64,000 nt of DNA from Methylocella sp. (GTDB lineage Bacteria > Pseudomonadota > Alphaproteobacteria > Rhizobiales > Beijerinckiaceae), in assembly GCA_037200525.1 (NCBI GenBank), contig JBBCGG010000001.1, forward strand, positions 3,774,501 through 3,838,500, read 5' to 3'. A program made the position numbers and the translations under genes. This document shows, piece by piece, positions 38,694 to 53,725 of the stretch; the stretch's first letter is position 1; each line of letters starts with the position of its first letter. Under the pieces are notes generated by a model, which had not been told where the DNA came from, did not search any database, and saw only the letters and a list, made by a program, of their open reading frames with translations.

Positions 38694-38840
38694 AGCATGA
38701 TCGCTCCAATGAGTCGACCATGCTCCTGATTCGTTTATCTCAACGCATGACCACGAAAAGTCCGCAACTTTTCGGGGTCATGTTCGCTCTCTCCAACGCA
38801 TGACCTTGTCCGAAAAGTCAGCAACTTTTCGGGGCCATGC
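38694..38840. repeat. Cluster of three REP-like palindromes
   Basis: Palindrome 1: GAGCATG (38694-38700) and CATGCTC (38719-38725). Palindrome 2, 38746-38782: CATGACCACGAAAAGT, five-base loop, ACTTTTCGGGGTCATG, a 16-bp stem with one mismatch. Palindrome 3, 38798-38840, has the same GCATGACC...CGAAAAGT / ACTTTTCGGGGCCATGC arms and starts one base after the fmdB stop. This GCATGA-CCGAAAA-TTTTCGG-TCATGC type is a familiar dispersed extragenic repeat of Rhizobiales. Copies 2 and 3 likely also act as a 3' end for the fmd operon. Confidence 0.8.
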
Positions 38841-38841
38841 T

Positions 38842-39177
38842 TTAGTGACTAATCATCCAGGGCCGGCTGTTAGGGAAGGTTTTGGCCCCTGAGCCCGCGG
38901 CTTTGGTCCGTGCGGACTTGGCCCCTGCCCCGCAGCATCCGCAGTTCGCGCCATGCCGAACGCCCGCGGACCGGCGAGGCTCGTTCGCGCTGCGTTCGTT
39001 GGTGGCGTGAGCGACCCGAAGTCCGGCATCCATTCCCGCGATCGCAGGAGCGGTCAGAAACGCCCGCGGCGCTTCCACACCGCAGTTCGGACAGGAATAG
39101 GCATCGCGATACTCGGCCATTGGTCGAAATGCGGCGAATGGGCCGCACTCCTCGCAGGAATAATCGTAAACGGGCAT
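38842..39177 (-). CDS. fmdB: FmdB family zinc-ribbon protein
   Basis: 111 residues. The N-terminal zinc ribbon is CEEC...CPNC in MPVYDYSCEECGPFAAFRPM, the FmdB hallmark; the rest is low-complexity, with a second cysteine cluster (CGCCGAG). The ATG at 39177 has GAGG upstream; the longer open frame to 39381 lies inside fmdA. In Methylophilus FmdB is regarded as a regulatory partner of formamidase. Last gene of the urtABCDE-fmdAB series, 10 bases after fmdA. Confidence 0.88.
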   Translation of the reverse strand: MPVYDYSCEECGPFAAFRPMAEYRDAYSCPNCGVEAPRAFLTAPAIAGMDAGLRVAHATNERSANEPRRSAGVRHGANCGCCGAGAKSARTKAAGSGAKTFPNSRPWMISH

Positions 39178-39187
39178 AGCGCGCGCC

Positions 39188-40417
39188 TCACAGATCGGGC
39201 GCGAGAGGCATGTCGATGCCGCCCTTGATGAATTTCTGCGGGCCGGCAGCGGTCGGGCTGATGTCGAAGTCGAAAATTTGAGTCGGCAGCCACAGGGTAG
39301 CGCAAGCGTTAGGAATATCGACCACGCCGGAAATATGTCCCTGGACGGGGGCCGTGCCCAAGATCGAATAGGCCTGCGCACCGGAGTAGCCGAACTTCTT
39401 CAGATACTCGATCGCGTTGAGGCATGCCTGACGATAGGCGACGTTGACGTCGAGGTAGTGCTGGCCGCCATGCTCGTCGACCGAAATGCCCTCGAAGATC
39501 ATGTAGTCATTGTAATGGGGCGTGATCGGGCTCGGCTTGAACATCGGGTTTTTGACCCCGTATTTGGCCATGCCGTCCTTAATGACATCCACTTTGAGGT
39601 GGATCCAGCCGGCCATTTCAACGGCGCCGCAGAATGTGATCTCGCCGTCGCCCTGGCTGAAATGCAGATCGCCCATCGACAGCCCTGCGCCCGAGACATA
39701 TACGGGGAAATAGATCTTCGATCCGCGCGACAAATCCTTGATGTCGCAATTGCCGCCGTGCTCGCGCGGCGGCACGGTGCGCGCTCCCTCGGCGGCCGCC
39801 TGGTCTCTCGCCGCGCCCTTCATGCGGCCCATATGGGCTGTCGGGCCGAACGGCGGATTGGCGAGCGGCGGAACTCGCGTCGGATTGGTGGCGATAAAAT
39901 CCACCTCGCGCTTGTTCCAGGTATCAAGAAGCTTCTTATCCGGCAGACAACCAATAAGGCCGGGATGGATCAGGCCGGCGAAACGCACGCCCGGAATATG
40001 GCGCGATTTCGTGAACATGCCTTCAAAGTCCCAGATCGACTTCTGAGCCTGGGGGAAATGGTCGGTGAGAAACCCGCCGCCGTTTTTCTTCGAAAAAAAG
40101 CCGTTAAAACCCCACTGACTATCGGGCTTGGCTCCGATATCGAGAATATCTACGACGAGCAGGTCGCCTGGCTCCGCGCCTGCAACGCCGACCGGGCCGG
40201 AAAGAAAATGCACGATCGACAGATCGATGTCGCGGACATCCGACGCGTCGTCGTTGTTCTTGATAAAGCCGCCCGTCCAGTCATAGGTCTCGATGATGAA
40301 ATCATCGCCCGGCTTCACCGTGGCGACCATCGGAATGTCCGAGTGCCAGCGATTGTGAACCATGTCGTTTTCGTAAGCTGACTGTGAAAGATCGACCTTG
40401 ATCAAGGTTTCCGGCAT
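39188..40417 (-). CDS. fmdA: Formamidase
   Basis: 409 residues of the FmdA/AmdA acetamidase-formamidase family, hydrolysing formamide to formate and ammonia. Seen: MPETLIKVDLSQSAYEND, HNRWHSDIP, the glycine-rich HPGLIGCLP, and CDIKDLSRGSKIYFPVYV...LSMGDLHFSQGDGE with likely catalytic or metal residues. AAGGAG directly abuts an ATG at 40423, so the ATG at 40417, six bases further, is the better start. It follows urtE by 51 bases. Its formate could feed the formate dehydrogenase at 51344-52546. Confidence 0.95.
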   Translation of the reverse strand: MPETLIKVDLSQSAYENDMVHNRWHSDIPMVATVKPGDDFIIETYDWTGGFIKNNDDASDVRDIDLSIVHFLSGPVGVAGAEPGDLLVVDILDIGAKPDSQWGFNGFFSKKNGGGFLTDHFPQAQKSIWDFEGMFTKSRHIPGVRFAGLIHPGLIGCLPDKKLLDTWNKREVDFIATNPTRVPPLANPPFGPTAHMGRMKGAARDQAAAEGARTVPPREHGGNCDIKDLSRGSKIYFPVYVSGAGLSMGDLHFSQGDGEITFCGAVEMAGWIHLKVDVIKDGMAKYGVKNPMFKPSPITPHYNDYMIFEGISVDEHGGQHYLDVNVAYRQACLNAIEYLKKFGYSGAQAYSILGTAPVQGHISGVVDIPNACATLWLPTQIFDFDISPTAAGPQKFIKGGIDMPLAPDL

Positions 40418-40468
40418 TTGCATCTCCTTGGTTTACATTTGATTTTCTGAGGTGGGACTGGCGCGGCC

Positions 40469-41158
40469 CTAAACGGACAGGAAGCTCGCGACCTTGGCCT
40501 CGTCGATATTCTTGCGTTCGTCGGCATGGACAATCTCGCCATTCTCGAGAACGAGAACCCTGTCGGCGATGTCGAGCGCAAAACTAAGCACTTGTTCGGA
40601 GACGACGATCGACAGGCCGCGCTCATCGCGAATGCGTTTCAACGTCCGGCCCATATCGCGTATGATCGACGGCTGGATGCCCTCCGTCGGTTCATCGAGG
40701 AGCAGCACTTTGGGCTTTGAGGCCAGAGCGCGCGCGATCGCCAGCTGCTGCTGCTGTCCGCCCGATAAATTGCCTCCGCGCCGATTCTTCATTTCGAGCA
40801 ACACAGGGAACATCTCGTAAAGATCGCCGGGGACGCGCCGCTCTCCGGAAACGGTCAGGCCCGTCTCGATGTTTTCCTCGACGGTCATCGTCGAGAAAAT
40901 CATGCGCCCTTGCGGCACATAAGCGATGCCTTTCGCAACGCGCTCGAAGCTCTTCAATTTCGTGATGTCGACGCCGCCGACGCTGATCGACCCTGTTTTG
41001 CTTGGCGCAATCCCCATCAGAGACTTCATGAGCGTCGTCTTGCCCATGCCGTTGCGGCCCATAATCGCGACGATCTCTCCTGGCTGCACATTGAAGCTGA
41101 GCCCGTGCAGAACCTCGCTTTGGCCATAGGCTACGTGCAGATTGACGATGTTGAGCAT
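40469..41158 (-). CDS. urtE: Urea/short-amide ABC transporter ATPase UrtE
   Basis: 229-residue ATPase of the HAAT (branched-chain amino acid-type) ABC family. Walker A GRNGMGKTT, Q-loop VPQGRMIFSTMTVEEN, ABC signature LSGGQQQQLAIARAL and Walker B LLLDEPTEG are complete. Partner of UrtD, forming the heterodimeric motor under UrtBC. Urea versus amide selectivity cannot be read from this subunit; the downstream formamidase argues for short amides. Confidence 0.9.
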   Translation of the reverse strand: MLNIVNLHVAYGQSEVLHGLSFNVQPGEIVAIMGRNGMGKTTLMKSLMGIAPSKTGSISVGGVDITKLKSFERVAKGIAYVPQGRMIFSTMTVEENIETGLTVSGERRVPGDLYEMFPVLLEMKNRRGGNLSGGQQQQLAIARALASKPKVLLLDEPTEGIQPSIIRDMGRTLKRIRDERGLSIVVSEQVLSFALDIADRVLVLENGEIVHADERKNIDEAKVASFLSV

Positions 41159-41173
41159 GTTCTTCGGCTCTCC

Positions 41174-41929
41174 TCAATGTCCGAGATAGACTTCGATGAC
41201 CTTGGGGTCGTTCTTGACCCGCTCCATCGAGCCTTCGGACAAGACTTTGCCCTGGTGCAGCACGGTGACCCGGTGCGCAATATCTTCGACGAATTTCATG
41301 TCATGCTCGATCACAAGGACAGAGCGACCCTTGATGATCTTGTTGAGGAGCTCTGCGGTTTTCACGCGCTCGCTGACGCTCATGCCGGCGACCGGCTCAT
41401 CGAGCATAAGAAGTTCGGGATCCTGAATCAGCAGCATTCCGATCTCGAGCCATTGCTTCTGCCCGTGGCTCAGAAATTCGCCGCGCTCCTGGAGATGATC
41501 CTGCAGAAAGATCATCTCGGCGATCTCGGCGATGCGTTCGCGCACCGCCGCATCGCGCCGGAAGGCCAAGGCCCCAAACACCGAGCGTCCGCGCGGATAA
41601 GAGATTTCCAGATTCTCGAACACCGTCAGGTCTTCATAGATCGAAGGCGTCTGAAATTTGCGGCCAACGCCCGCCGTGACGATATCGCTCTCGCTCATCC
41701 GGCACAATTCCTGACCGCGGAACTTGATCGAGCCGGAGCTCGCGCGCGTCTTGCCGCAGATCAAATCGAGCACTGTCGTCTTGCCGGCCCCATTGGGGCC
41801 GATGATGACCCGGATCTCATTGGGGTCGATGTAAAACGATACGTCGTCGACCGCCTTGAAACCATCGAACGATACAGTGAGGCCTTCGACGGCGAGAACG
41901 AAGTCAGATTGCTGTTCGGTGCTGATCAT
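41174..41929 (-). CDS. urtD: Urea/short-amide ABC transporter ATPase UrtD
   Basis: 251 residues. Walker A GPNGAGKTT, the SHGQKQWLEIGMLL signature typical of UrtD and Walker B LLMLDEPVAGMS are seen. Closely follows urtC (12 bases) and precedes urtE by 15 bases, so the genes are co-transcribed. Second ATPase of the transporter. Confidence 0.9.
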   Translation of the reverse strand: MISTEQQSDFVLAVEGLTVSFDGFKAVDDVSFYIDPNEIRVIIGPNGAGKTTVLDLICGKTRASSGSIKFRGQELCRMSESDIVTAGVGRKFQTPSIYEDLTVFENLEISYPRGRSVFGALAFRRDAAVRERIAEIAEMIFLQDHLQERGEFLSHGQKQWLEIGMLLIQDPELLMLDEPVAGMSVSERVKTAELLNKIIKGRSVLVIEHDMKFVEDIAHRVTVLHQGKVLSEGSMERVKNDPKVIEVYLGH

Positions 41930-41941
41930 TTTTCACTTTCC

Positions 41942-43099
41942 TTATTCGGCCGGGGCGCCAGGCTTGACAGGCGCGCCGCTTGAGGCGACGGACCCTTTCC
42001 TAGATTGCCACAGCCTGATCAGACGCGCTTCGATATGGGTGCGGTAGATGCCCGCAAGGCCGTCCGGGAAGGCGAGAACGACGCCGATGAAAAGCGCGCC
42101 AAGGCCAAACAGCCAAAGCTCGGGAAAGCTCTCGGAGAAGCTTGTCTTGGCCCAATTGACGAGGAGCGTGCCATAGACCGCGCCAAAGAGGGAGATTCGC
42201 CCGCCGACCGCCGTATAGATCACCATGTCGATCGATGGGACGATGCCGACAAGCGAGGGCGACATGAAGCCGACCTGCAGGGTAAACATAGCGCCGCCGA
42301 TCGAGGCGAACACCGCCGCAAGACAAAAGGCGAAGATCTTGAAGTTCGCGACCGAATATCCGGAGAAGCGAACGCGGTCTTCCTTGTCGCGCATGGCGAC
42401 CAATATTCGGCCCAGCTTTGAGCGTTTGACGAACTGGGCGGCGAGGATGCAAGCAAAAAGCGTGATCCCGCTAACGAAGTAGAGAATGACCTTGGCGTGA
42501 TCGGTCCGAATGTCCCAACCGTTCAGCGTCCGCAGATCCGTCATGCCGTTGACGCCGCCGGTATATCCCTGCTGCCCAATGATCAGAATCGTCAAGATGG
42601 CCGCGATCGCTTGGGTGATGATCGCGAAATACACGCCGCCGACGCGGCGCTTGAACATGGCGAAGCCAATGACGAAGGCGAACGCGGCCGGAACGGTCAA
42701 AATAATGATGATCGTCAGCGCAAAGCTATGGAACGGCTGCCAGAAAAACGGCAGCGAAGTGATCTGATTCCAATCCATGAAGTCGGGGATGCCCGGCGTC
42801 GACTGGATTTTGGTGTTCTCGACGCTCGAGGCCTCTAGCTTCAGGAACATCGCCATGGCGTAGCCGCCAAGACCGAAAAAGACGCCCTGGCCAAGGCTGA
42901 GAATGCCGCCATAGCCCCAGCACAAGACAAGACCCAGCGCAGCGAAGGCATAGGTCAAATATTTGCCGACGAGATTGAGACGGAACGCATCCAACCAAAG
43001 CGGCAGGACCAAAAATATCAGGGCTGCGAGCACTGCGAGGCCGACGTATTCCATCGGCTTCATGAAGGGGGATTCGTGTATCTTGGAATCGTATTTCAT
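41942..43099 (-). CDS. urtC: Urea/short-amide ABC transporter permease UrtC
   Basis: 385-residue LivM-type inner-membrane permease with about ten hydrophobic segments. Core motifs LGLVLCWGYGGILSLGQGVFFGLGGYAMAM and GGRISLFGAVYGTLLVNWAKTSFSE are characteristic of UrtC. It follows urtB by nine bases. The hydrophilic C-terminal tail is proline/glycine-rich. Confidence 0.9.
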   Translation of the reverse strand: MKYDSKIHESPFMKPMEYVGLAVLAALIFLVLPLWLDAFRLNLVGKYLTYAFAALGLVLCWGYGGILSLGQGVFFGLGGYAMAMFLKLEASSVENTKIQSTPGIPDFMDWNQITSLPFFWQPFHSFALTIIIILTVPAAFAFVIGFAMFKRRVGGVYFAIITQAIAAILTILIIGQQGYTGGVNGMTDLRTLNGWDIRTDHAKVILYFVSGITLFACILAAQFVKRSKLGRILVAMRDKEDRVRFSGYSVANFKIFAFCLAAVFASIGGAMFTLQVGFMSPSLVGIVPSIDMVIYTAVGGRISLFGAVYGTLLVNWAKTSFSESFPELWLFGLGALFIGVVLAFPDGLAGIYRTHIEARLIRLWQSRKGSVASSGAPVKPGAPAE

Positions 43100-43108
43100 G
43101 GTCGAACC

Positions 43109-44035
43109 TCAGCGCCGAACTTTGAGCGTAAAGAGACCCTGCGGCCGCAGCATGAGAATGATCACGACGCCGAGCAAGGTGAGAACCTTGGCCATCGAGC
43201 CCGAGAGGAAAAACTCCATCGTCGATTGAGCCTGCGAGATCGTGAACGCCGAGGCGATTGTTCCGAGAAGGCTCTGCGCGCCGCCAAAGACCACGACCAA
43301 GAAGGTGTCGACGATATAAAGCTGGCCGGAAGTCGGGCCCGTCGAGCCGATCATCGTGAAGGCGCTGCCCGCGACGCCGGCGATGCCGCAGCCGATGCCG
43401 AATGTGTACCGATCGACTTTTTCCGTGTTGATGCCGACGGCTCCCGCCATGACGCGGTTTTGCATCACGGCGCGCACCTGCTTGCCCCAAACGGACCGGT
43501 AGATCATCAACGCCACTGCGACCGTGATGAGGATCGTGAGGCCCATGACGAAGAGCCCATTGATCGGAATTTCCGTCGATCCGCCGAGATTGATCGAACC
43601 TAGCATCCAGGCCGGAAGCTCAACTCCAACCTCGCGCGCGCCGAACACCGAGCGATAGGTTTGCTGAAGGATCAGGCTGACGCCCCAGGTGCAGAGCAAT
43701 GTGTCGAGAGGCCGCTTGTATAGGCGCTTGATCAACGCCCATTCAACCAGCATGCCAAGCGCCCCCGCGGCGACGAAGGCGAGCGCCATAGCGATGAAAA
43801 AGTAGATGCCGAACAGGCTCGGAAGATAAGCCTGAAAGAAGTTCGACGTCAGATAAGTCATATAGGCGCCGAGGATCATGAACTCCCCGTGCGCCATGTT
43901 GATCACCCCCATCTGGCCGAAAATGATGGCGAGACCCAGCGCCATCAGGACGTAGACGGAGAAAAGGATGAGACCAGCGAAACCCTGCATCACGAAAATA
44001 GAGCCGAGATCGGCCAGCGAGTAATCGCCGAACAT
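43109..44035 (-). CDS. urtB: Urea/short-amide ABC transporter permease UrtB
   Basis: 308-residue LivH-type permease with about eight hydrophobic segments. GLAIIFGQMGVINMAHGEFMILGAYMTYL and VVFGGAQSLLGTIASAF match UrtB. Separated from urtA by 117 bases holding a hairpin (44111-44131), the only sizeable gap within the transporter genes. Confidence 0.9.
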   Translation of the reverse strand: MFGDYSLADLGSIFVMQGFAGLILFSVYVLMALGLAIIFGQMGVINMAHGEFMILGAYMTYLTSNFFQAYLPSLFGIYFFIAMALAFVAAGALGMLVEWALIKRLYKRPLDTLLCTWGVSLILQQTYRSVFGAREVGVELPAWMLGSINLGGSTEIPINGLFVMGLTILITVAVALMIYRSVWGKQVRAVMQNRVMAGAVGINTEKVDRYTFGIGCGIAGVAGSAFTMIGSTGPTSGQLYIVDTFLVVVFGGAQSLLGTIASAFTISQAQSTMEFFLSGSMAKVLTLLGVVIILMLRPQGLFTLKVRR

Positions 44036-44110
44036 AAGTTATCTCCTGAATAATGCGTCTGCCGCTGAATTCGGGCCTTGCATCAAACGGGCCAACAAAT
44101 CGCGCCAAAC

Positions 44111-44131
44111 GGCGCGGCCTAAGACCGCGCC
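44111..44131 (-). promoter_or_regulatory. Hairpin between urtA and urtB
   Basis: GGCGCGG, a seven-base loop, and CCGCGCC form a perfect 7-bp GC stem in the 117-base gap after urtA. No T run follows. Such stems between a binding-protein gene and its permease genes often stabilise the upstream mRNA or reduce read-through, giving excess binding protein; that role is inferred. Confidence 0.45.
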
Positions 44132-44152
44132 GGCGAGCATTGTCGATCGAGG

Positions 44153-45418
44153 TTATTGATAGCCCTTCGGGAAGGGATTGGGTTCGATCAAGTCCGGTGA
44201 TTCGTAGACAATGTCAAACTGACCATCGAGCCGAGCATGCCCAACGCGCGTGTGCGACCAGAGGTGGTGGTTTTCGTGAATCCGGACATAGCCTTCGGGA
44301 GCGCCTTTGAACTCGATCCCGGGCGAGGCGGCCGCGATCTTGTCGACATCGAAGCTGCCGGCTTTCTCGGCGGTCAGCTTCCACAGCCACGGGCCGAGAT
44401 AGGCCGCCTGGGAAACGTCGCCGATCACGGTTTTCGGTCCCCACATCTTGTGGAAATTCTCGACGAAAGTCTTGTTGTTATCGTTCTGGACCGATTCAAA
44501 ATATTTCATGCATGAGAAGGCGCCGGCGATATTGTCGCCGCCGATGCCGTCGATTTCATCTTCCGTGACCGAGATCGTCAGCAGCAGCTGCTTCGACAGA
44601 TCGACGCCGGCCGCCTTCAGCTGCTTGTAGAAGGCCACGTTGGAGCCGCCGACGACGTCGGCGAAGATAACGTCGGGCTTCTTCAGCTTGATCTTGTTGA
44701 TGACGGAATTGAATTCGGTATGTCCGAGCGGGAAATATTCCTCGCCGACGACCTTGCTGTCCTTCAGCACGTTTTCAATGTGCTTGCGCGCGATCTTGTT
44801 CGAGGTGCGCGGCCAAATATAATCCGAGCCAATCAGGAAGAAAGACTTGGCGCCTTTTTCCTTCGTGATCCAGTTGAGGCCGGCGAGGATCTGCTGGGTT
44901 GCTTCCTGACCGGTGTAGATGACGTTCTTGGATTGCTCGAGACCCTCGTAGAAGGTCGGATAATAGAGCATGCCGTTGTACTGCTCCAAAACCGGCAGCA
45001 CGGCTTTACGCGAGGCCGAGGTCCAGCAGCCCATGATGGCGGCGCATTTGTCGCTGACGAGAAGTTTTTTGGCTTTTTCGGCGAAAGTCGGCCAGTCGCT
45101 GGCCCCGTCCTCCTGAATGATTTTGATCTGGCGGCCGAGAATGCCGCCCTGCTTGTTGATCAGATCGATCGCCAGCTTTTCAGCTTCGATCGAGCCCGTT
45201 TCGGAAATAGCCATGGTGCCGGTGACGGAATGCAAAATGCCAACCGTCACGTCCGTGTCGGTGACCGCGAGGCCGGTCGTATTGATCGCCGAGGTCGCCG
45301 GGGGCGCGTCCGCGAAGGCCATTCTGGGCAGAACCGCCATCGCCGGAACAGCCGCCATGCCCATCAGCAGCTTTCGGCGCAGGTTGGACTGGAGACCTCG
45401 ATCCTTATCAATCGTCAT
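44153..45418 (-). CDS. urtA: Urea/short-amide ABC transporter substrate-binding protein UrtA
   Basis: 421 residues. N-terminus SNLRRKLLMGMAAVPAMAVLP carries a twin arginine and a hydrophobic core, possibly a Tat signal. The mature part is a type I periplasmic binding protein of the UrtA/FmdD class: VGILHSVTGTMAISE, GCWTSASRKAVLPVLEQYNGMLYYPTFYEGLE and LGHTEFNSVINKIK. First gene of the series ending in fmdAB, so amides or urea are likely ligands. Divergent from the sensor kinase gene. Confidence 0.9.
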   Translation of the reverse strand: MTIDKDRGLQSNLRRKLLMGMAAVPAMAVLPRMAFADAPPATSAINTTGLAVTDTDVTVGILHSVTGTMAISETGSIEAEKLAIDLINKQGGILGRQIKIIQEDGASDWPTFAEKAKKLLVSDKCAAIMGCWTSASRKAVLPVLEQYNGMLYYPTFYEGLEQSKNVIYTGQEATQQILAGLNWITKEKGAKSFFLIGSDYIWPRTSNKIARKHIENVLKDSKVVGEEYFPLGHTEFNSVINKIKLKKPDVIFADVVGGSNVAFYKQLKAAGVDLSKQLLLTISVTEDEIDGIGGDNIAGAFSCMKYFESVQNDNNKTFVENFHKMWGPKTVIGDVSQAAYLGPWLWKLTAEKAGSFDVDKIAAASPGIEFKGAPEGYVRIHENHHLWSHTRVGHARLDGQFDIVYESPDLIEPNPFPKGYQ

Positions 45419-45450
45419 TATTTGACCCTCTGCCGCAGTTGGAGCTTGCA

Positions 45451-45466
45451 GTACACGGCCGTGTAC
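45451..45466. promoter_or_regulatory. Perfect 16-bp palindrome, candidate operator 1
   Basis: GTACACGGCCGTGTAC is its own reverse complement and lies 33 bases upstream of the urtA ATG, where it could overlap a core promoter or the 5' untranslated leader. Confidence 0.55.
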
Positions 45467-45490
45467 CTATGGTCGAAGAATGCGACGAAT

Positions 45491-45503
45491 TGTGCAATGC
45501 ACA
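45491..45503. promoter_or_regulatory. Perfect dyad, candidate operator 2
   Basis: TGTGCA and TGCACA flank a single central A. It is one base from the third dyad, and the pair lies 73-104 bases upstream of urtA. Confidence 0.5.
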
Positions 45504-45504
45504 C

Positions 45505-45522
45505 ATACGTCGATTGACGTAT
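45505..45522. promoter_or_regulatory. Perfect 7-4-7 dyad, candidate operator 3
   Basis: ATACGTC, spacer GATT, GACGTAT. The size suits a dimeric NarL/LuxR-type regulator such as the one encoded at 49113. Confidence 0.55.
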
Positions 45523-45732
45523 ATTGAAGCTCGGCTCGCAGACGCGGCGTCCGCGGGCCTTCATCGGAGGGCGGACGCCCGGGCCTGGCAGGTAGCTCAT
45601 GGCAGGCAGAACATTGAGCTCCGTATCGCGCGCCCGCGCATGTTGGGCGCGACGCATGGGCGCGCCTATACGGGATCGCGAGCGGCTACCTAATGCCCAG
45701 ACGAAGCTGCGCGGCAAGGGTCGGCGAAGCCA

Positions 45733-48700
45733 ATGAGCGGGCGACAGCGAATCCTTCCGGTTCGCCGCGAATACAATCAATGGGTCGCCAACCAGACGCT
45801 CGAGGATTTTGCGCTGCGCTTTACGGCGAAGGGCGCGCGCCGGTGGTCGACCTTGCGGGTTGCGCAGACCGCCATTGGCGCCATTTCATTTCTTGCGCTC
45901 GAAGCGATCGGCGCCGTCATAACGCTCAGTTACGGCTTCACCAACGCCGCAGCCGCAATCATGGTCGTCAGCGCCCTGATTTTCGCGCTCGGCCTGCCGA
46001 TCGCCTATTATGCCGCCCGTTATGGCGTCGATATCGATCTTCTCACCCGAGGAGCGGGCTTCGGCTACATCGGGTCGACGATCACATCGCTGATCTACGC
46101 CACATTCACATTCATCTTTTTCGCCATAGAAGCGTCGATCATGTCGATGGCGCTGCAACTCTGTTTCGGCGTTCCGCTGCCCCTCGGCTATCTCATCAGT
46201 TCGATCGTCGTGATCCCGCTCGTGACGCACGGCATCACGTTCATCAGCCGCTTCCAACTCTGGACCCAGCCCCTCTGGATTGCGCTCAATCTGCTCCCTT
46301 TCATCTTCATCGCCTTTCAGGACCGGCAAGCGATCGAAGCCTGGGTGCAGTTTCCAGGCTCGCAAACCGGAACCGCCGCCGCGTCCTTTAATATACTCGC
46401 CTTCGGCGCCGCCGCCTCGGTTGTCATCGCTCTCGTCGCCCAAATCGGCGAGCAAGTGGATTTTTTGCGCTTCCTGCCAGCCAACAGCGACAGACCGACG
46501 GCTGGTTGGTGGACGGGCTTGCTGGCGGCGGGTCCCGGCTGGATCATCTTCGGAGGATTGAAGCTGTTCGCCGGATCCTTTCTCGCCGTGCTCGCGCTTC
46601 GGCATGGGACCTCGGTCGAGCACGCGAGCGATCCCACCCACATGTACGAGATCGCATTCCGCTATGTGACGCCCTCCCCCGGATTGGCCATCGCGCTGAC
46701 GGGCGCCTTCGTGATCGTCTCGCAACTGAAGATCAATGTAACGAACGCCTATGCGGGCTCGATCGCCTGGTCGAATTTCTTCTCCCGCCTGACGCATCGC
46801 CATCCGGGACGCGTGGTCTGGCTCGTCTTTAACGTTGCGATCGCGCTCCTCCTCATGGAGCTTGGCATCTACAGGGCGCTGGAGCACACGCTTGGCTTCT
46901 ACTCGATTGTGGCGGTCGCCTGGGTCGGCGCGCTGGTGTCAGACCTCGTCGTCAACAAGCCGCTTGGGCTGAGCCCGCCTCATATCGAGTTCAAGCGCGC
47001 TCATCTTTACGACATCAACCCGGTCGGCGTCGGCGCGATGGCCGCGGCGACCGCACTTGGGTGCATCGCCTTCACCGGCGCGCTCGGGGACGCGCCGCGC
47101 GCCCTGGCCCCGTTCGTCGCCCTCGTCACCGCCTTCGTGACGGCCCCGATCATCGCGGCGGCCACGCGCGGCAGATATTACTTGGCTCGCAAGCCGCGGG
47201 CGCATTGGCGGCATAAGTCGGAAATCGTCTGCCGTGTCTGCGACAACAGCTTCGAAACGGAGGACATGGCGTTCTGTCCGGCCTTTTCCGGGCCGATCTG
47301 TTCGCTTTGCTGCACCCTTGATGCGCGTTGCCACGATCTCTGCAAGCCGCAAGGCAAACTCGGAAACCAGGTGCTCGGGATTCTCAAAAAAAGCTTTCCG
47401 GCCGCCATCGTGACGCGGCTGCAGTCCCGATTTGGACGGTTTGCCGGGCTGATATTCGTGCTCACCTCGATAACGGCGCTGATCCTTTTTCTCATCTATG
47501 TCGAAGCGATCGCCGCCGATCCGGGGAGCAGCGCGATCATCGCGCGAACGCTCTGGAGCGCTTTCTTCGTCCTCTTGATCATAGCTGGGATCGCGGCGTG
47601 GCTCTTCGTTCTCGCGCACGAGAGCCGGCAGGTCGCGCAAGAGGAGTCCGCCCGACAGAATATGCTGCTTCTGCGCGAGATAGAGGCGCATAAGCGCACG
47701 GACGCTCAGCTTCAGAAGGCCAAAGAGGTCGCGGAGGCTGCGAATTTCGCCAAAAGCCGCTACGTCGTCGGCATCAGCCACGAGTTGCGGACGCCGCTTA
47801 ACGCAATTCTCGGCTACGCGCAGTTGCTTGACCGGGAGCCGGCGATTCCAAGCGGTCGTCAGGGCGGCATCCGGGTCATAAGGCGCAGCGCGGAGCATCT
47901 TTCCGGGCTGATCGACGGGCTGCTCGACATCTCGAAGATCGAGACGGGCCGTCTTCAGCTGCAACGCAATGAAGTCCACATCCGCAGCTTCCTCGACCAG
48001 CTCGTCGATATGTTCAGGCTGCAGGCGGAAGCCAAAGGCCTCGAGTTCCGCTTCAGCTCCGCGGACAACCTTCCCGAGGTCGTCTACACCGACGAGAAGC
48101 GCCTGCGCCAAATTCTCATCAACCTTCTGTCGAACGCCCTCAAATTTACGGAAACCGGCTTCATATCGCTCAAGATCGCCTACCGAACCCAAGTGGCCGA
48201 GTTTAGCATTTCTGATTCCGGGGCCGGGATTTCGAACGACGACCTCGGGCGCATCTTTCAACCTTTTGAGCGGGGCAGCGCGCCGAGCGCGCGGGCGACG
48301 ACAGGTTTGGGGCTTGGACTGACGATCACGAAGCTCCTCGCCGAGATTCTCGGCGGCGATATTTCAGTTGCGACGGAACTTGGCGAGGGCAGCACTTTCA
48401 AGGTCCGCCTGATGTTATCGCCCGTTATGCAGCCGAGCGCCGCCCCGCCGCTGCCGACGCCGCCGCGAATATATGGTTACAGAGGGACGCGCCGCACGAT
48501 CCTCGTCGTTGACGACAATCCCGATCACCGCGACCTCATTCGCGAGCTTCTGGCGCCGCTTGGATTCATTGTGTTGACGGCGGGCGACGGCGCAACTTGC
48601 CTCGCCATCGTGGAGGAGATGCAGCCAGACCTTTTCATCCTCGATATTTCGCTGCCCGGCATAAACGGCTGGGATTTGGCGCGAACTCTTCGCGATTCCG

Positions 48701-49116
48701 GTCAAGCCAATGCGGCCATTCTCATGATGTCCGCCAATATCGGCGATGCTCAGCTCGGAGGCGACGAAGGCAACGCTTATGACGACACCTTGCCGAAGCC
48801 GTTCGACGTAAGGCAGCTCTTTGATCGGCTGCAGGCCCTGTTGCAGTTGGAGTGGATCGACGAGCCGGTTCGACCCGCGCCGCATGTGCTCGCGCGCGCG
48901 ACGGTCACGCCTCAGCCGCCGCGGCTGGACGAGCTTTTGCACCTCACCCGCATTGGGTACATTCGGGGCATTGAGGCAAAGCTCGCCGAACTCGAAGCGG
49001 AGGAGCCCGAAACGGCAGCGTTCGTCGATGAAATGCGCGTGCATGTCCGCGCATTCGACATCCCGCGTCTCTTGGCGCGGCTCGAGGCGATCAGCGCCGA
49101 CGAGCCGCTGCCATGA
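45733..49116 (+). CDS. NCS1-type transporter / hybrid histidine kinase fusion
   Basis: 1127 residues in one chain. Residues 1-~470 form a polytopic domain resembling NCS1 (purine/cytosine/allantoin) permeases, with LEAIGAVITLSYGFTNA and AYYAARYGVDIDLLTRGAGFGY. A cysteine cluster follows (C500, 503, 515, 523, 526, 527, 533, 537), then two more membrane segments (~572-592, ~606-628). The kinase has HisKA with SHELRTPLNAIL (H683), an N box NLLSNALKFT and GLGLGLTI. A receiver domain follows with the phosphoacceptor in DLFILDISLPG (D971), then a ~90-residue helical tail. ATGA overlap couples it to the response regulator. Inferred to sense an amide, urea or nucleobase by transport or binding and to control the divergent urt-fmd genes. 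Confidence 0.85.
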   Translation: MSGRQRILPVRREYNQWVANQTLEDFALRFTAKGARRWSTLRVAQTAIGAISFLALEAIGAVITLSYGFTNAAAAIMVVSALIFALGLPIAYYAARYGVDIDLLTRGAGFGYIGSTITSLIYATFTFIFFAIEASIMSMALQLCFGVPLPLGYLISSIVVIPLVTHGITFISRFQLWTQPLWIALNLLPFIFIAFQDRQAIEAWVQFPGSQTGTAAASFNILAFGAAASVVIALVAQIGEQVDFLRFLPANSDRPTAGWWTGLLAAGPGWIIFGGLKLFAGSFLAVLALRHGTSVEHASDPTHMYEIAFRYVTPSPGLAIALTGAFVIVSQLKINVTNAYAGSIAWSNFFSRLTHRHPGRVVWLVFNVAIALLLMELGIYRALEHTLGFYSIVAVAWVGALVSDLVVNKPLGLSPPHIEFKRAHLYDINPVGVGAMAAATALGCIAFTGALGDAPRALAPFVALVTAFVTAPIIAAATRGRYYLARKPRAHWRHKSEIVCRVCDNSFETEDMAFCPAFSGPICSLCCTLDARCHDLCKPQGKLGNQVLGILKKSFPAAIVTRLQSRFGRFAGLIFVLTSITALILFLIYVEAIAADPGSSAIIARTLWSAFFVLLIIAGIAAWLFVLAHESRQVAQEESARQNMLLLREIEAHKRTDAQLQKAKEVAEAANFAKSRYVVGISHELRTPLNAILGYAQLLDREPAIPSGRQGGIRVIRRSAEHLSGLIDGLLDISKIETGRLQLQRNEVHIRSFLDQLVDMFRLQAEAKGLEFRFSSADNLPEVVYTDEKRLRQILINLLSNALKFTETGFISLKIAYRTQVAEFSISDSGAGISNDDLGRIFQPFERGSAPSARATTGLGLGLTITKLLAEILGGDISVATELGEGSTFKVRLMLSPVMQPSAAPPLPTPPRIYGYRGTRRTILVVDDNPDHRDLIRELLAPLGFIVLTAGDGATCLAIVEEMQPDLFILDISLPGINGWDLARTLRDSGQANAAILMMSANIGDAQLGGDEGNAYDDTLPKPFDVRQLFDRLQALLQLEWIDEPVRPAPHVLARATVTPQPPRLDELLHLTRIGYIRGIEAKLAELEAEEPETAAFVDEMRVHVRAFDIPRLLARLEAISADEPLP

Positions 49117-50033
49117 GCGAACCGCTTCAAGAGCGCAACATTGTCCTCGTCGTGGACGATTCGCCTGACACTTTGAGTCTTCTGACCGACGCTCTTGAAC
49201 AGGCGGGGGCGACCGTGCTCGTCGCCGTGTCGGGAGAAATTGCGCTCGATCTCGTCCGGCGCATCACGCCTGACATTATCTTAATGGACGCCATCATGCC
49301 CAAGATGGACGGCTTTGAGACCTGCCGCCGTCTGAAGAGCAACAATGCCGTTTCGCATATTCCCGTCATCTTCATGACAGGGCTGAGCGAAACCGAGCAC
49401 ATTGTGCAGGGGCTCGACGCCGGCGGGGTCGATTACGTCACAAAGCCGATCGCCCCAGACGAGCTTTTGGCGCGAATTCGCGTCCATTTGGCGAACGCCC
49501 GCGCCTCCCAGAGCGCCCGCATGGCGCTCGACGCCACCGGCCGGTTTCTACTAGCGGCCAATGCCGCAGGACGCGTCCTCTGGTGCACGCCGCAAGCGAC
49601 AAAATTGCTCGAAGCGGCGCTGCCGAGCCGCGATGGGAGTTTCGTTTTTCCCGAGACGCTGCGCGCGCGTCTCAAATCGGTCTCTGAACGGAGCGCGGAA
49701 TCTGGACCTTTCTCGCTGCCGAGCTCCACCGGGCAAAAACTTCAATTGTCGTTCCTCGGCCAGATCGGCGATGACGAACTTCTGTTCCGCCTGACGAACG
49801 AACAGGCGACGACGGACCAGCTGGCGGTGCTGAAACAGCAGTTCGGCCTCACGCCGCGCGAATCCGAGGTGTTGCTCTGGGTGGCGCAAGGCAAGGCAAA
49901 TCGGGATATTGGAGAGATTTTGAGCCTCTCGCCGCGAACGGTGAACAAGCATCTTGAGCAGATTTTCACCAAGCTTGGCGTCGAAAATCGCGCCACCGCC
50001 GCTGCAATCGCCGTCCGCGCCCTCAGTTCCTAG
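49113..50033 (+). CDS. LuxR/NarL-type response regulator with PAS-like middle domain
   Basis: 306 residues: receiver domain (1-~125) with the phosphoacceptor in DIILMDAIMPKMDG (D59) and Lys in DYVTKPIAPDE; a middle region (~135-235, LDATGRFLLAANAAGRVLWC) of PAS-like appearance; a C-terminal LuxR helix-turn-helix LTPRESEVLLWVAQGKANRDIG...SPRTVNKHLEQIFTKLGV. Translationally coupled to the fused sensor. Expected to bind dyad DNA; three dyads lie upstream of urtA. Confidence 0.88.
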   Translation: MSEPLQERNIVLVVDDSPDTLSLLTDALEQAGATVLVAVSGEIALDLVRRITPDIILMDAIMPKMDGFETCRRLKSNNAVSHIPVIFMTGLSETEHIVQGLDAGGVDYVTKPIAPDELLARIRVHLANARASQSARMALDATGRFLLAANAAGRVLWCTPQATKLLEAALPSRDGSFVFPETLRARLKSVSERSAESGPFSLPSSTGQKLQLSFLGQIGDDELLFRLTNEQATTDQLAVLKQQFGLTPRESEVLLWVAQGKANRDIGEILSLSPRTVNKHLEQIFTKLGVENRATAAAIAVRALSS

Positions 50034-50088
50034 AGCGATTTTCGAAACCGGTGATGCGTCGCGTTCTGGAAGCTGCTACTGTTAGAGG

Positions 50089-50765
50089 ATGAACATCCAT
50101 AGTAAAAAAGCGTTTAGCGGCCTCTTTTTCCTTATCCTTGCGATGGCGGCGCTGCTGTTTATTCCAGCGTGGACGTTGGATTACTGGCAGGCGTGGACGT
50201 TCCTCGCCGTATATTCCACGGCGTCTTTCGCGATTACCCTCTACCTTGTAAAAAAGGATCCGAAGCTTTTAGAGCGACGGATAAGTGGAGGGCCGTTTGC
50301 TGAGAAGGAAGCAAGTCAAAAAATCATAATGCTTTTAACGTCGCTGGGGTTTATCGGCCTCATTGTTTTGCCCGCCCTCGATCGTCGTTTCGCCTGGTCG
50401 CACATGGCGCCGTTTTGGGCATTGCGGGAGATGTTCTTGTAGTTCTCGGCTTCCTCTCCATTTTTTTGGTGTTCAGGGCAAATACATTTGCCTCCGCCAC
50501 CATTGAATTGGCTCCGGAACAGAAAGTCATCTCAACTGGCCCGTACGCGTTCGTGCGCCACCCGATGTATGCTGGGAGCCTTGTCGTGCTTCTCGGCATA
50601 CCGGTCGCGCTCGGTTCGTGGTGGGCGTTGCTCGTCATTGTGGCGCTGACGCCCGCGATTATATGGAGACTAATCGACGAGGAAAAATTCCTGGCGAAAA
50701 ATCTGCCGGGCTATCGGAAGTACCAGAAAACAGTGAAATATCGTTTGATGCCGCTGATCTGGTGA
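50089..50765 (+). pseudogene. Isoprenylcysteine carboxyl methyltransferase-like membrane protein, frameshifted
   Basis: Two overlapping frames make one ~225-residue polytopic protein of the ICMT/PEMT type. The first (50089-50442) ends soon after DRRFAWSHMAPF. The second continues LGIAGDVLVVLGF through the diagnostic STGPYAFVRHPMYAGSL and ends at 50765. The break is at four T (50413-50416); a fifth would restore the frame. This is either a real inactivation or a sequencing error. The family methylates varied small or lipid substrates; the target here is unknown. It follows the response regulator by 55 bases. Confidence 0.75.
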
Positions 50766-50854
50766 GGCGCCTTCCATCCCTCGTTTAAGAGTATTTTGAA
50801 ACAAAAAATCTATCGCTCGCTGGAGAGATCAAGTCGCGACTTGGAGCGATTTGT

Positions 50855-51106
50855 TCAGGCTCGCATATCAGCGCCGGCAAGCCCTATCGCGACGCCTTGG
50901 CGTGCGGCGATCTCAAGCTTGACTTTGGTCCAATATGCTCGCGATTCAACTCCGTCGACGCAGCGCCCTTTCACCCTATCGCGCGCCTCGAAATAGGCTT
51001 GGTCCTTGAAGCTGGCGATCAGGCGATCGGCATCAGCCAGAATTGCCTCTTTGCGTTGGGCGCGACGGTCAAACCATTCAGAGAGCACAAATATTAAAGC
51101 ATGCAT
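50855..51106 (-). CDS. Small conserved-looking hypothetical protein
   Basis: 83 residues, MHALIFVLSEWFDRRAQRKE followed by ADADRLIASFKDQAYFEARDR. Composition is protein-like and the ADRLI-FxDQAYxEAR pattern recalls short proteins of unknown function found in Rhizobiales. No catalytic motif or membrane segment; predicted helical. Adjacent regions of 88 and 237 bases are non-coding. Confidence 0.5.
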   Translation of the reverse strand: MHALIFVLSEWFDRRAQRKEAILADADRLIASFKDQAYFEARDRVKGRCVDGVESRAYWTKVKLEIAARQGVAIGLAGADMRA

Positions 51107-51293
51107 GATTGCGAATCACTCTACCGCTGCGAGCGCAATTAAGCTGCCTGTCGTGCAGCCAAATCGCAACCCCTGAATGGTAGTTGTTTACAATTTGTTC
51201 GAGAACGGAATTCTACACAGCCTTAGCGGCGATCGCGGGATTCTGATCGCCCGGCGTTCTTTTCGGCGGCAATTAAGTCGAGGGCGCCGCGCG

Positions 51294-51335
51294 TAAAAGC
51301 ACGGCGGCTTCGACCAATTGGCCGAGCCGCCATGC
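51294..51335 (-). terminator. Intrinsic terminator of fdh
   Basis: On the minus strand GCATGGCGGCT (51335-51325) pairs with AGCCGCCGTGC (51309-51299), one G-T wobble, followed by TTTTA. It lies just after the formate dehydrogenase stop. Confidence 0.75.
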
Positions 51336-51343
51336 GTTAGAAA

Positions 51344-52546
51344 TTACGCTTTCTTGAAGCGCGCCGCCTCTTCGGAGCCGGTCGTAGCGTTGCCGGCGCT
51401 GTAGGAATGCGCGCCCGTTCCGGCGAGCTTGCCGCCGTCGACGATCAGATATTCGTCGCGGATCGGCCGTCCCTCGAACCAGCATTCAAGGATTTCGCGC
51501 GTGCCAGCCGCGTAGCGGGTCTGCGCCGACAATGACGTGCCCGAGATATGTGGCGTCATGCCGTGATGCGGCATGGTACGCCAGGGATGATCTTTCGGAG
51601 CCGGCTGCGGGAACCAGACGTCGCCGGCGTAGCCCGCGAGCTGTCCGCTTTCGAGCGCCCGTACGATGGAGTCGCGATCGCACAGCTTGCCGCGCGCCGT
51701 GTTGACGAGATAGGCGCCGCGCTTGAATAGCTTGAGCGTCTCGTCGTTGATCATATGCTCCGTTTCCGGATGCAGCGGGCAGTTCAGCGTGACGACGTCG
51801 CAGACTCCGTACATGTCCTCGCGCGTCGCATGCCAGGTGAGGCCCAGCTCCTTCTCCACCGCTTCCGGCAGGCGGTGACGGTCGGTGTAGTGCAGATGCA
51901 TATCGAAGGGCTTCAGGCGGCGCAGGACGGCGAGGCCGATGCGGCCAGCGGCGACTGTGCCGACATGCATGCCTTCGACGTCATAGGAGCGGGTGACGCA
52001 ATCGGCGATGTTCCAGCCGCCCTTCACCACCCACTGGTAGGAAGGGATGTAGTTGCGCACGAGCCCGAGGATCATCATCACGACGTGTTCGGCGACGCTG
52101 ATCGAGTTGCAGTAGGTGACTTCCGCAACAGTGATCTTGCGGTCAATCGCCGCCTGGAGATCTACGTGATCGGAGCCGATGCCAGCCGTGAGAGCAAGCT
52201 TGAGCTTCTGCGCCTTGGCGATGCGCTCGGCGGTGAGATAAGCCGGCCAGAAGGGCTGAGAGATAACGATTTCGGCGTCGGCCAGCTCGCGCTCTAGGAC
52301 CGAGTCCGGGCCGTCCTTGCTGGACGTGACGACAAACTGGTGGCCAAGGCCTTCGACGTAGGACCTCAAGCCCAATTCGCCGGACACGCTGCCGAGGAGG
52401 GTGCCGGGCTTGAAGCCGATGGCTTTAGGAGTCGGAAGCGTTTGGCCGCCGGGATATTTGTCGATCTTGGGCAGATCATTTCGCGCATAAGATGTTGGAT
52501 ATCCATCGACTGGATCATCATAAAGCACACAAACGACTTTTGCCAT
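51344..52546 (-). CDS. fdh: NAD-dependent formate dehydrogenase (single-subunit, D-2-hydroxyacid dehydrogenase type)
   Basis: 400 residues, the size and sequence type of the metal-free FDH of methylotrophs such as Pseudomonas sp. 101. Oxidises formate to CO2 with NAD+ reduction. NAD loop VGTVAAGRIGLAVLRRL, catalytic Arg in NTARGKLCDRDSIV and catalytic His in HHGMTPHISGTS are present; the N-terminal ~45-residue extension YPTSYARNDLPKIDKYPGG is typical of bacterial FDH. GAAGGGAAG precedes the ATG. It probably disposes of formate from C1 metabolism and from formamidase. LysR-type gene upstream in the same direction. Confidence 0.95.
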   Translation of the reverse strand: MAKVVCVLYDDPVDGYPTSYARNDLPKIDKYPGGQTLPTPKAIGFKPGTLLGSVSGELGLRSYVEGLGHQFVVTSSKDGPDSVLERELADAEIVISQPFWPAYLTAERIAKAQKLKLALTAGIGSDHVDLQAAIDRKITVAEVTYCNSISVAEHVVMMILGLVRNYIPSYQWVVKGGWNIADCVTRSYDVEGMHVGTVAAGRIGLAVLRRLKPFDMHLHYTDRHRLPEAVEKELGLTWHATREDMYGVCDVVTLNCPLHPETEHMINDETLKLFKRGAYLVNTARGKLCDRDSIVRALESGQLAGYAGDVWFPQPAPKDHPWRTMPHHGMTPHISGTSLSAQTRYAAGTREILECWFEGRPIRDEYLIVDGGKLAGTGAHSYSAGNATTGSEEAARFKKA

Positions 52547-52778
52547 GTTATTGCTTCCCTTCGTTCAACGAAAAAGAGGAACGCCGAGCCGTGTGGACTG
52601 CCCACAGACAGAATTCGCGAAAGATATAAGAAGCAGCGTGTTGCTCGAATCCTTATAAATACTCGACCTTGTTCTTGGCGTTTCCCCGTTCCAGCGGATC
52701 AATACACATCGTGCTACTTAAACCGCCGCGAACAGGCGCATACTTGCGCTGCAACCACCACAAGATCAAATGGAAATC

Positions 52779-52808
52779 TTGATAGGATCAATAAAAAAAA
52801 TCTATCAA
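52779..52808. promoter_or_regulatory. Repeated TTGATAG half-sites upstream of fdh
   Basis: TTGATAG (52779-52785) and CTATCAA (52802-52808) form an inverted pair, and the left one is also part of TTGATAGGATCAA (52779-52791), itself a dyad with a three-base centre. They lie 233-262 bases upstream of fdh, touching the lysR stop codon, separated by an A-tract. Candidate LysR-regulator sites; distant for a promoter, so tentative. Confidence 0.35.
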
Positions 52809-53725
52809 ACCTGACCGTGCGCGGCCTCAGCCAAATCGGCTTCGAAGTCCGCGTCGTGCGTCGACTTTAGAAGGGCGTTCGCCATCGGCGAAAGCGGATC
52901 GCGATCGGAGAAGACGAGGCCGACCGACTGGCTATGCACCGGCTCGACGAGGTCGATCGCGACCAAATCGGGCGCCCTGCCAAAAACATAGAAGAAGGTA
53001 TGAGGGACGATGCTAGCCCAAGCGCCGCGCCGGAGATGCGACCACACGCCGAGGTAAGAGTTGCTAACGACCGCCGGCTTGATCGTTAAGCCCAGCGATG
53101 CGGCGACATTATTGATGATGCGCCTGTTCTGCATGTCTTCGCTCAGGAGGCACAGCGATTCTCGCACGGCTTCGGCCCAGGTGATTGTCTTGGCCGCCGC
53201 GTGTCTGCTCGCGCGACTGGTGACGAAAACATATCTCTCGCGATAGAGCTCCATGCGCCGGATATTCTCCAGCGGCTCATTGTTTAAATAGGTCAGTCCC
53301 GCATCGAGCTCCAAGCTGTCGAGCCCACGCTGGATCGACTGCGAGCTCATCGACCGAACCTCGACAGTGGCCGCCGGGTGGGCGGCGCAGAAGCGAGAAG
53401 TCAAAAAGGAGATCGAGAGCATTGCGGCCGGCACCACCCCGAGACGCAAGGCGCCGGTCAAGCCCTTGCGGAGACCAGAAAGACCGACGCGCAGGCTTTC
53501 GTAATCGGCTATAATCTGACGCGCCCATTCAAGCACTCTTTCCCCTTCAGGGGTCAATCCGAGAAACTGGTGGCCCCTGACGACGAGCCTGATGTCCAGA
53601 TCTTCCTCGAGCTTGCGGATCGCGGCCGACAGAGTCGGCTGCGTCACATTGCAGGCCTCCGCCGCGCGGCGGAAATGCTTCTCCCTGGCGAGCGTCACGA
53701 AGAAATACAAATGACGGACGAGCAT
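52805..53725 (-). CDS. LysR-family transcriptional regulator
   Basis: 306 residues. N-terminal winged helix-turn-helix: FVTLAREKHFRRAAEACNVTQPTLSAAIRKLE; the rest is a LysR substrate-binding domain (~90-300). Located 258 bases upstream of fdh on the same strand, like regulators that activate formate dehydrogenase genes in other proteobacteria. Formate as effector is inferred from position only. Confidence 0.88.
   Translation of the reverse strand: MLVRHLYFFVTLAREKHFRRAAEACNVTQPTLSAAIRKLEEDLDIRLVVRGHQFLGLTPEGERVLEWARQIIADYESLRVGLSGLRKGLTGALRLGVVPAAMLSISFLTSRFCAAHPAATVEVRSMSSQSIQRGLDSLELDAGLTYLNNEPLENIRRMELYRERYVFVTSRASRHAAAKTITWAEAVRESLCLLSEDMQNRRIINNVAASLGLTIKPAVVSNSYLGVWSHLRRGAWASIVPHTFFYVFGRAPDLVAIDLVEPVHSQSVGLVFSDRDPLSPMANALLKSTHDADFEADLAEAAHGQV

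Follow-up and report, generated by a model that had tools for sequence, protein, structure and literature searches.

We analysed a 64,000-nucleotide stretch of the genome of Methylocella sp. (contig JBBCGG010000001.1, positions 3,774,501 to 3,838,500), here called the window, and found that it encodes a hybrid sensor kinase whose N-terminal domain is an NCS1-fold permease. The kinase gene is coupled to the gene of a LuxR-type response regulator, and the pair diverges from the urea/amide transporter and formamidase genes urtABCDE-fmdAB. From comparison with related loci, we consider it probable that the kinase is a transceptor built on an NCS1 permease that senses formamide or urea, and that its regulator binds a palindrome in front of urtA and activates urtABCDE-fmdAB. 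In this mechanism, the N-terminal domain, a probable paralogue of urea and short-amide permeases, would act as the receptor, and the binding (or slow transport) of an amide would shift its conformation. The conformational signal would pass through a cysteine linker and a transmembrane (TM) pair with coiled coil to the HisKA/HATPase kinase. From there, the LuxR-type regulator would receive the phosphoryl group, either directly or under modulation by the built-in receiver, and the phosphorylated regulator would bind TACGTC-n4-GACGTA and switch on, rather than repress, the operon.

The sensor kinase and its regulator

The two genes and their domains are as follows (positions in the window).

45733-49116, + strand: hybrid sensor kinase gene, 1127 amino acids, with the order NCS1-fold permease, Cys linker, TM pair, HisKA, HATPase_c, REC, C-terminal tail (open reading frame, Pfam domains, motifs)
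45733-47193, + strand: NCS1-fold permease domain, putative receptor, residues 1-487 (Foldseek, hhalign)
47230-47343, + strand: eight-cysteine segment, residues 500-537 (model, conservation)
47428-47784, + strand: two further helices, residues 566-684 (566-595 and 597-684; model)
47752-47949, + strand: HisKA, residues 674-739, phospho-acceptor His683 (Pfam)
48088-48417, + strand: HATPase_c, residues 786-895 (Pfam)
48499-48831, + strand: receiver (Response_reg), residues 923-1033, Asp971 (Pfam)
49113-50033, + strand: response regulator, 306 amino acids, REC 11-123 (Asp59), GerE/LuxR helix-turn-helix (HTH) 246-300 (Pfam)

A first-pass annotation of the window had described a single frame that runs from an NCS1-like permease through eight cysteines into a complete hybrid kinase, and the open reading frame, the Pfam kinase domains and the fold match all agree with it. 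The kinase has HisKA, HATPase_c and a receiver with their catalytic residues and is thus a hybrid histidine kinase. Residues 682-688 (SHELRTP) form the H box, and N-box-like and G-box-like motifs occur as well. In the predicted structure, helix 597-684 continues into the dimerisation helix. Pfam searches found no PAS domain in the kinase and no HPt family in its C-terminal tail. The regulator, with REC and GerE HTH, is of the LuxR/NarL type, and its gene overlaps that of the kinase as ATGA (49113-49116), in line with the earlier description of the pair. Its middle part (about 146-229) is predicted to be mixed alpha/beta with a PAS-like order of elements; a fold search with the whole regulator model, in which this domain was not searched alone, returned matches for the receiver and the HTH.

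The domain search that the first-pass annotation had proposed succeeded for the HisKA, HATPase and REC profiles and failed for NCS1: the Pfam profile PF02133 has no match to the window permease at a limit of E 10. More generally, kinase residues 1-640 have no weighty Pfam transporter match at E<=10, a search in which the HMMER filters drop most weak matches even at this limit. A sub-threshold Otopetrin match (E 0.11) covers the later helices 565-621, outside the permease. Neither NCBIfam nor Pfam gives the window permease a transporter name, and the SSF (SSS/SLC5) profile does not match it. Two of three stand-alone relatives match the CodB model weakly (2e-6 and 1.5e-4).

Fold and profile alignment are what place the domain. 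We modelled residues 1-690 with AlphaFold2 from 43 sequences (mean pLDDT 78.7, pTM 0.77). The best Foldseek matches in the PDB were Mhp1 (2jln, E 2.5e-8) and CodB (7qoa, TM by target 0.76), and the top five consist only of structures of these two NCS1 proteins. The TM by query is 0.44-0.48, lowered since the model extends beyond the permease. SLC5 structures, among them SiaT and DUR3 (a urea carrier), come lower in the ranking. With hhalign, the sensor family aligned to four NCS1 proteins at 98.1% over 420 columns and to an Mhp1-led NCS1 profile at 98.5% (E 1.6e-15, 358 columns); single NCS1 sequences gave weaker results (79.8% and 22.7%). These results support the proposal that the N-terminal domain of the sensor is a permease of NCS1 fold.

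The relatives found by fold and profile are nucleobase and hydantoin transporters. The permease might then be a nucleobase/hydantoin-type receptor, with the urea and formamide operons controlled as the downstream part of purine and pyrimidine breakdown, and the other exact palindrome in the same genome indeed lies near another NCS1 permease gene. The residues of the permease argue against this. We mapped the sensors to Mhp1, tentatively, as the mapping rests on about 17-18% identity, using the Mhp1 residues of the substrate and Na2 sites. At the position of Mhp1 W117, 98 of 159 sensors have Phe and 61 Leu, with no Trp, and W220 maps to V231 in the window sensor. Q121 maps to Glu133, which is kept in 159/159 sensors, and N318 to Asn338 (160/160). 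The Na2 hydroxyls S312 and T313 correspond to Lys333 (160/160) and Ile334 (159/160). Both the stacking aromatics of NCS1 (TM3/TM6) and the Na2 hydroxyls (TM8) are thus absent from the sensors. In NCS1 proteins, the two aromatics that sandwich the substrate are conserved throughout, and the equivalent of CodB Trp108 is predominantly Trp family-wide (PMC9379551). A nucleobase ligand is unlikely because these stacking aromatics are lost. Furthermore, we noticed no nucleobase gene next to a sensor when reading the gene lists, in which no systematic search was made. Control by a nucleobase receptor therefore appears very improbable. Of the inputs that the first-pass annotation had listed, amide and urea are favoured by the comparative evidence (linkage and the neighbours of stand-alone permeases), whereas the nucleobase is not. 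Specificity residues that separate formamide-linked from urea-linked sensors are not claimed here, as the candidate columns are weak.

Linkage to urea and formamide operons

The genes on the other side of the intergenic region are as follows.

44153-45418, - strand: urtA, substrate-binding protein of a urea/amide ABC transporter, formamide type (TIGR03407, 528.5 bits)
43109-44035, - strand: urtB (TIGR03409)
41942-43099, - strand: urtC (TIGR03408)
41174-41929, - strand: urtD (TIGR03411)
40469-41158, - strand: urtE (TIGR03410)
39188-40423, - strand: fmdA, formamidase (NF045496, 767 bits; PF03069)
38842-39177, - strand: fmdB, zinc-ribbon protein (Zn_ribbon_8, 38.6 bits)

Since urtA-urtE and the formamidase exceed the NCBIfam cut-offs and fmdB has a zinc-ribbon match, the divergent urtABCDE-fmdAB operon is as the first-pass annotation had read it.

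We observed that relatives of the sensor are almost always found next to such genes. The order was sampled with 297 evenly drawn genomes, of which 88 had a match, a few of them plain NCS1-like. In 83 of the 85 places examined (out of 87 non-window places above 500 bits; G224 and G295 were omitted), urt, fmdA or urease genes are nearby, and at the two unlinked places the contig ends 45 and 366 bp upstream. In an evenly drawn sample of 398 genomes from the phylum (52 with a match at E<=1e-60), 34 of 35 places outside the order list are linked and the remaining one has no upstream contig. A scan of genome_contigs confirmed at least 587 relatives. Among the best 80 of these loci, 78 are linked; of the other two, L096 is close to the end of its contig, and L117 alone is a true exception. 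A few genomes were counted twice, by handle and by named contig, so that the counts over all loci are slightly redundant, and a row on the wrong strand (L018) was taken out of the first alignment. The sensor-regulator pair is a conserved and widespread module of Pseudomonadota, and its arrangement is not due to chance because it recurs across the order and the phylum. A survey in which homologues were mostly unlinked to amide genes would have spoken against the proposed control; the outcome was the opposite.

The module occurs in several wirings. In type 1, that of the window, fmdBA-urtEDCBA diverges from the kinase and the LuxR-type regulator. This type is also present on a Chelatococcus plasmid and on a Klebsiella oxytoca plasmid, where the formamidase gene is annotated amiF; Klebsiella accounts for 342 of the 535 plasmid records with a match. 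In type 2, the divergent transporter shares about 35-54% identity with that of the window, and at many loci ureDABC comes after it. Type 3 kinases (8 loci, including L046 3060-10015 and L048 9962-17131) have no C-terminal receiver and lie near fmdA, an AmiS/UreI gene and fmdB. At L046, the channel belongs to PF02293, and the kinase is partnered by a REC-HisKA-HATPase protein and an OmpR-type regulator. In a further clade (5 loci: L162, L168, L171, L172 and L173), the kinase diverges from ureA and the LuxR-type regulator is kept.

The urt genes are the commonest neighbours of the sensor. This would also be expected if the kinase sensed the Urt ABC transporter at work, the permease domain being a mere scaffold; such flux sensing is the mode of BceS-BceAB type systems. 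However, urt genes are dispensable for the linkage, as the sensor is kept with no urt found nearby beside amiS/UreI-like and fmdA genes (8 loci) and beside ureABC (5 loci). The same holds for sensors of Acinetobacter and Methylovirgula that occur with a stand-alone permease. Furthermore, the permease has many polar residues that at least 97% of sensors keep. We therefore regard flux sensing as improbable and retain the permease as the putative receptor.

The tree of the permease domain includes 163 of 207 rows, with near-identical ones (>93%) left out; it was inferred with a quick method and rooted at the midpoint, and several long branches were flagged. Urea-linked groups fall several times among formamide-linked ones. 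The two urt labels change 5 times each, compared to shuffled means of 54 and 50. Within its order, the window sensor is the formamide-linked neighbour of the large urea clade (SH-aLRT 85). This pattern shows that partner operons were exchanged several times between formamide and urea types.

Some observations concern the surroundings of the module. At L051 7909-18264 (CP026716.1), heat-tolerance genes (clpK/hsp20) are found close to the amiF-urtEDCBA / kinase-regulator module, and a gene for cyanuric acid amidohydrolase follows farther along. In the window, a gene for NAD-dependent formate dehydrogenase is found just past the regulator (51344-52546, - strand; NF005750, 708 bits) and could, by pathway inference, serve as a sink for the formate released by formamidase. 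Rfam has no family at threshold in 38000-53000. The genome has one sensor copy and, elsewhere, two urease alpha genes above the cut-off. It also contains a second urt-like operon (L251 4324-10740, read from translations) with an FmdA/AmdA-family gene, which adjoins ureABC and has no palindrome within two mismatches.

A candidate operator between the sensor and urtA

45505-45522: proposed operator ATACGTC-GATT-GACGTAT, centred about 95 bp 5' of the urtA start and about 219 bp 5' of the kinase start

The window copy, ATACGTCGATTGACGTAT, is a perfect match and the sole site in 64 kb at up to three mismatches; shuffles of the window average 1.13 sites at this limit. To count the pattern between urtA and kinase genes, intergenic regions above 1200 bp were excluded. 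The dyad TACGT-n6-ACGTA is present in 68 of 123 non-redundant gaps (formamide 27/75, urea 41/48), compared to a maximum of 4 over 20 shuffles in a control on a subset of gaps. The strict 12-base pattern with up to two mismatches occurs in 60/61 urea gaps and 51/100 formamide gaps; random segments of the same loci contain it in 4/305 and 8/500 cases. The relaxed form TACGY-n6-RCGTA is found exactly in 57/61 urea and 67/100 formamide gaps (shuffles: 1/610 and 3/1000).

The palindrome depends on the presence of the sensor. Upstream of urea-type urtA, the strict site (up to two mismatches) is present at 78 of 83 loci with the sensor (of 84; one had too little upstream) and at none of 30 without it. 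The latter 30 loci were returned from 53 matching genomes among 77 chosen sensor-negative genomes. When duplicates and near-copies were removed (five duplicate pairs), the counts were 63/68 and 0/28, and in five families that have both kinds of genomes they were 18/18 and 0/11. None of the 77 sensor-negative genomes yielded a formamide-type urtA (best 46% identity); with the sensor, the relaxed form is exact in 67/101 upstreams of this type. At loci with a site, its spacing to urtA varies little, with the centre at a median of 105 bp upstream for the urea type and 89 bp for the formamide type. Where urt is downstream of the sensor (L166), a relaxed copy lies about 90 bp before that urtA. No palindrome was found near the sensor in L158, L160 and L165. 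We conclude that TACGTC-n4-GACGTA is very probably the operator of the regulator. Together with the linkage, its dependence on the sensor supports, on comparative grounds, the suggestion of the first-pass annotation that the pair switches the amide genes.

The 297 genomes contain 62 exact sites in 60 genomes, of which 44 are within 3.6 kb 5' of a sensor and 18 are elsewhere (hand count). Four of these 18 were inspected (1 kb on each side, reading frames by eye) and no amide gene was recognised; many of the off-sensor sites probably arose by chance. With up to one mismatch, a backward-pattern control in the own genome equals the pattern (4 vs 4), and we therefore used only exact or clustered sites. 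The own genome has a second exact TACGTC-n4-GACGTA at L250 12248-12263 (G000:C1:677247-677262), with an NCS1 permease gene (PF02133), a second hydrolase and apparent mobile-element fragments in its surroundings. This site may be due to chance, because the background is about one exact site per ten genomes (hand count over off-sensor sites and controls); it could also be a second target.

Stand-alone permeases, the cysteine linker and known systems

Permeases without a kinase provide a hint of the ligand. We examined nine stand-alone loci, including six annotated neighbourhoods hand-picked from the 18 highest-ranking matches, and five of the nine adjoin or lie near urease or formamidase genes. 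In Acinetobacter baumannii, a 548-residue permease frame without kinase diverges from the sensor gene, with a relaxed site between them. The stand-alone permease of A. ursingii is directly before ureEFG-DABC, that of Klebsiella pneumoniae (L316) follows ureDABCEFG, that of Moraxella diverges from fmdA-fmdB and that of Tsukamurella is one gene from fmdB-fmdA; none of these four loci has the palindrome. In Methylovirgula, the stand-alone gene separates the sensor pair from an aliphatic amidase gene, and fmdBA flanks the pair on its opposite side. Relaxed sites lie there about 100 bp before fmdA and about 150 bp before the amidase gene, and two weaker copies of the palindrome are near the amidase. 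The locus of Streptomyces angustmyceticus has one copy with two mismatches, inside another gene. Stand-alones L315, L316, L318, L319 and L320, all at or close to urease or formamidase genes, are annotated as allantoin permease, cytosine permease or hypothetical.

With such genes at or close to five of the nine stand-alones, a urea/amide permease is probably the paralogue of the receptor. Glu133, Asn338, Lys333, Gln237, Glu240 and Gln241 are common to the three aligned stand-alones and the sensors. They differ at residues 56-57, which are Leu-Glu in sensors (Met-Glu in 4) and Asp-Phe in the stand-alones, so that the acidic residue of TM1 is displaced by one position. These residues are a candidate for the switch from transporter to receptor.

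The first-pass annotation had also noted an eight-cysteine segment, and all eight residues were located (500, 503, 515, 523, 526, 527, 533 and 537), each conserved in at least 97% of 160 sensors. The segment is predicted to form a helix and short strands, and long helices lead from it into the kinase. It matches no Pfam family; STAC itself, a four-helix linker, was not directly searched. The segment is likely a metal site. Urease needs nickel. With cysteines this well conserved, the real input might be the segment itself, as a redox or metal (Ni/Zn) sensor through which the metalloenzymes urease and formamidase would be coupled to metal or redox state, with the permease as a membrane anchor or metal path. 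However, part of the cysteines is retained by the three stand-alone relatives, which ties the segment to the lineage of the permease and not solely to signalling, and the permease residues are conserved as strongly as the cysteines. We consider a cysteine-based input improbable and prefer a linker that would relay the signal of the permease.

Several points weigh against amide sensing through the permease and the palindrome. The support is wholly comparative. The pTM of the structural model (0.77) is moderate, and sequence searches alone failed to reach solved NCS1 structures: a 24-sequence profile retrieved no PDB chain at E<=1 and a stand-alone relative as query found no transporter chain. 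As to ligand specificity, the columns that best track formamide versus urea linkage (e.g. position 324) do so weakly. No amide neighbour was found at the stand-alones L052, L053 and L317 (S. angustmyceticus; in S. chartreusis and Arthrobacter none was recognised). At L117, the operator is present, and neither urt nor fmd nor urease is matched within about 10 kb. Among formamide-type upstreams, 34/101 lack the relaxed form (degenerate only) and 50/101 the strict form, and the urea-type loci L152, L155, L156 and L160 have no palindrome 5' of urtA. The palindrome was also sought and not found at type 3 loci (0/8) and at loci divergent from ureA (0/5). L046, the sole type 3 locus checked in this respect, has the different, OmpR-type regulator, whereas the ureA-divergent clade keeps the LuxR-type regulator yet lacks the palindrome. 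Lastly, the exact site at L250, about 60 bp 5' of an alpha/beta hydrolase gene, is unexplained by the model.

Taken more broadly, the evidence slightly favours a class of transceptors across Pseudomonadota, in which an NCS1-type urea/short-amide permease with its cysteine tail would have been recruited as receptor by a hybrid kinase that has an operator of its own, and moved several times between formamide and urea operons. The stand-alones near urease and formamidase genes would then be a sodium-independent family of urea/formamide permeases, as yet unassigned. If true, this would suggest how rhizobia, methylobacteria and marine gammaproteobacteria switch urea and formamide use, and it would point to a likely urea/amide permease family. 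The defined operator would make the regulon directly testable. With a stand-alone transporter, a sensor paralogue and a handful of diagnostic residues, the change from transporter to receptor would become testable as well.

The fusion of transporters to kinases, for which the first-pass annotation had named CbrA, is indeed known. The SLC5/STAC sensor kinases CbrA, CrbS/MxtR and PrlS are permease-kinase fusions (PMC7918813); CbrA is also described in PMC13022988 and RpuS in PMC9100948. Like these, the window sensor fuses a full APC/LeuT-fold permease to a HisKA kinase; CrbS/MxtR and PrlS are likewise hybrids, and PrlS also pairs with a LuxR-family regulator (PMC7918813). Unlike these, it is NCS1-like and not SSS, has a Cys segment and a TM pair, no recognised STAC and no PAS found, and its neighbours are urea/formamide operons. 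Mhp1 and CodB have the same fold as the sensor, which keeps the Asn at the N318 position; in contrast to them, the sensor is fused to a kinase and is without the stacking aromatics and Na2 hydroxyls, at the low identity given above.

Parts of the system resemble published loci. Bradyrhizobium japonicum has a second five-gene urt-like cluster (blr0969-blr0973) beside a PF03069 gene, which was argued to carry amide and not urea (PMC3098086); PMC13209695 likewise argues for amides as the cargo of a formamidase-linked urt cluster. A divergent sensor pair and operator are not described in the accessible part of PMC3098086. The urtABCDE operon III of Ectopseudomonas guguanensis G3 has a histidine kinase and a LuxR-family regulator, with fmdA adjoining by locus tag, and the accessible part of the source does not describe the permease domain, the operator or the function (PMC13296017). 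AmiC/AmiR likewise controls an amidase operon in response to amides, but with a binding-protein-like sensor, an RNA-binding antiterminator and no kinase (PMC13209695). In the accessible open-licence literature, which is weak evidence, we found no description of an NCS1-type receptor kinase, the palindrome operator or its function. The Amt-histidine kinase of Kuenenia stuttgartiensis is also a fusion of a nitrogen-compound transporter to a kinase, which differs in being of Amt/Rh type and in its substrate, ammonium (PMC5764959). Few transporter-kinase fusions have been described in the sources at hand, of SLC5 and Amt types, and NCS1 would, if our reading is true, be the third fold among them.

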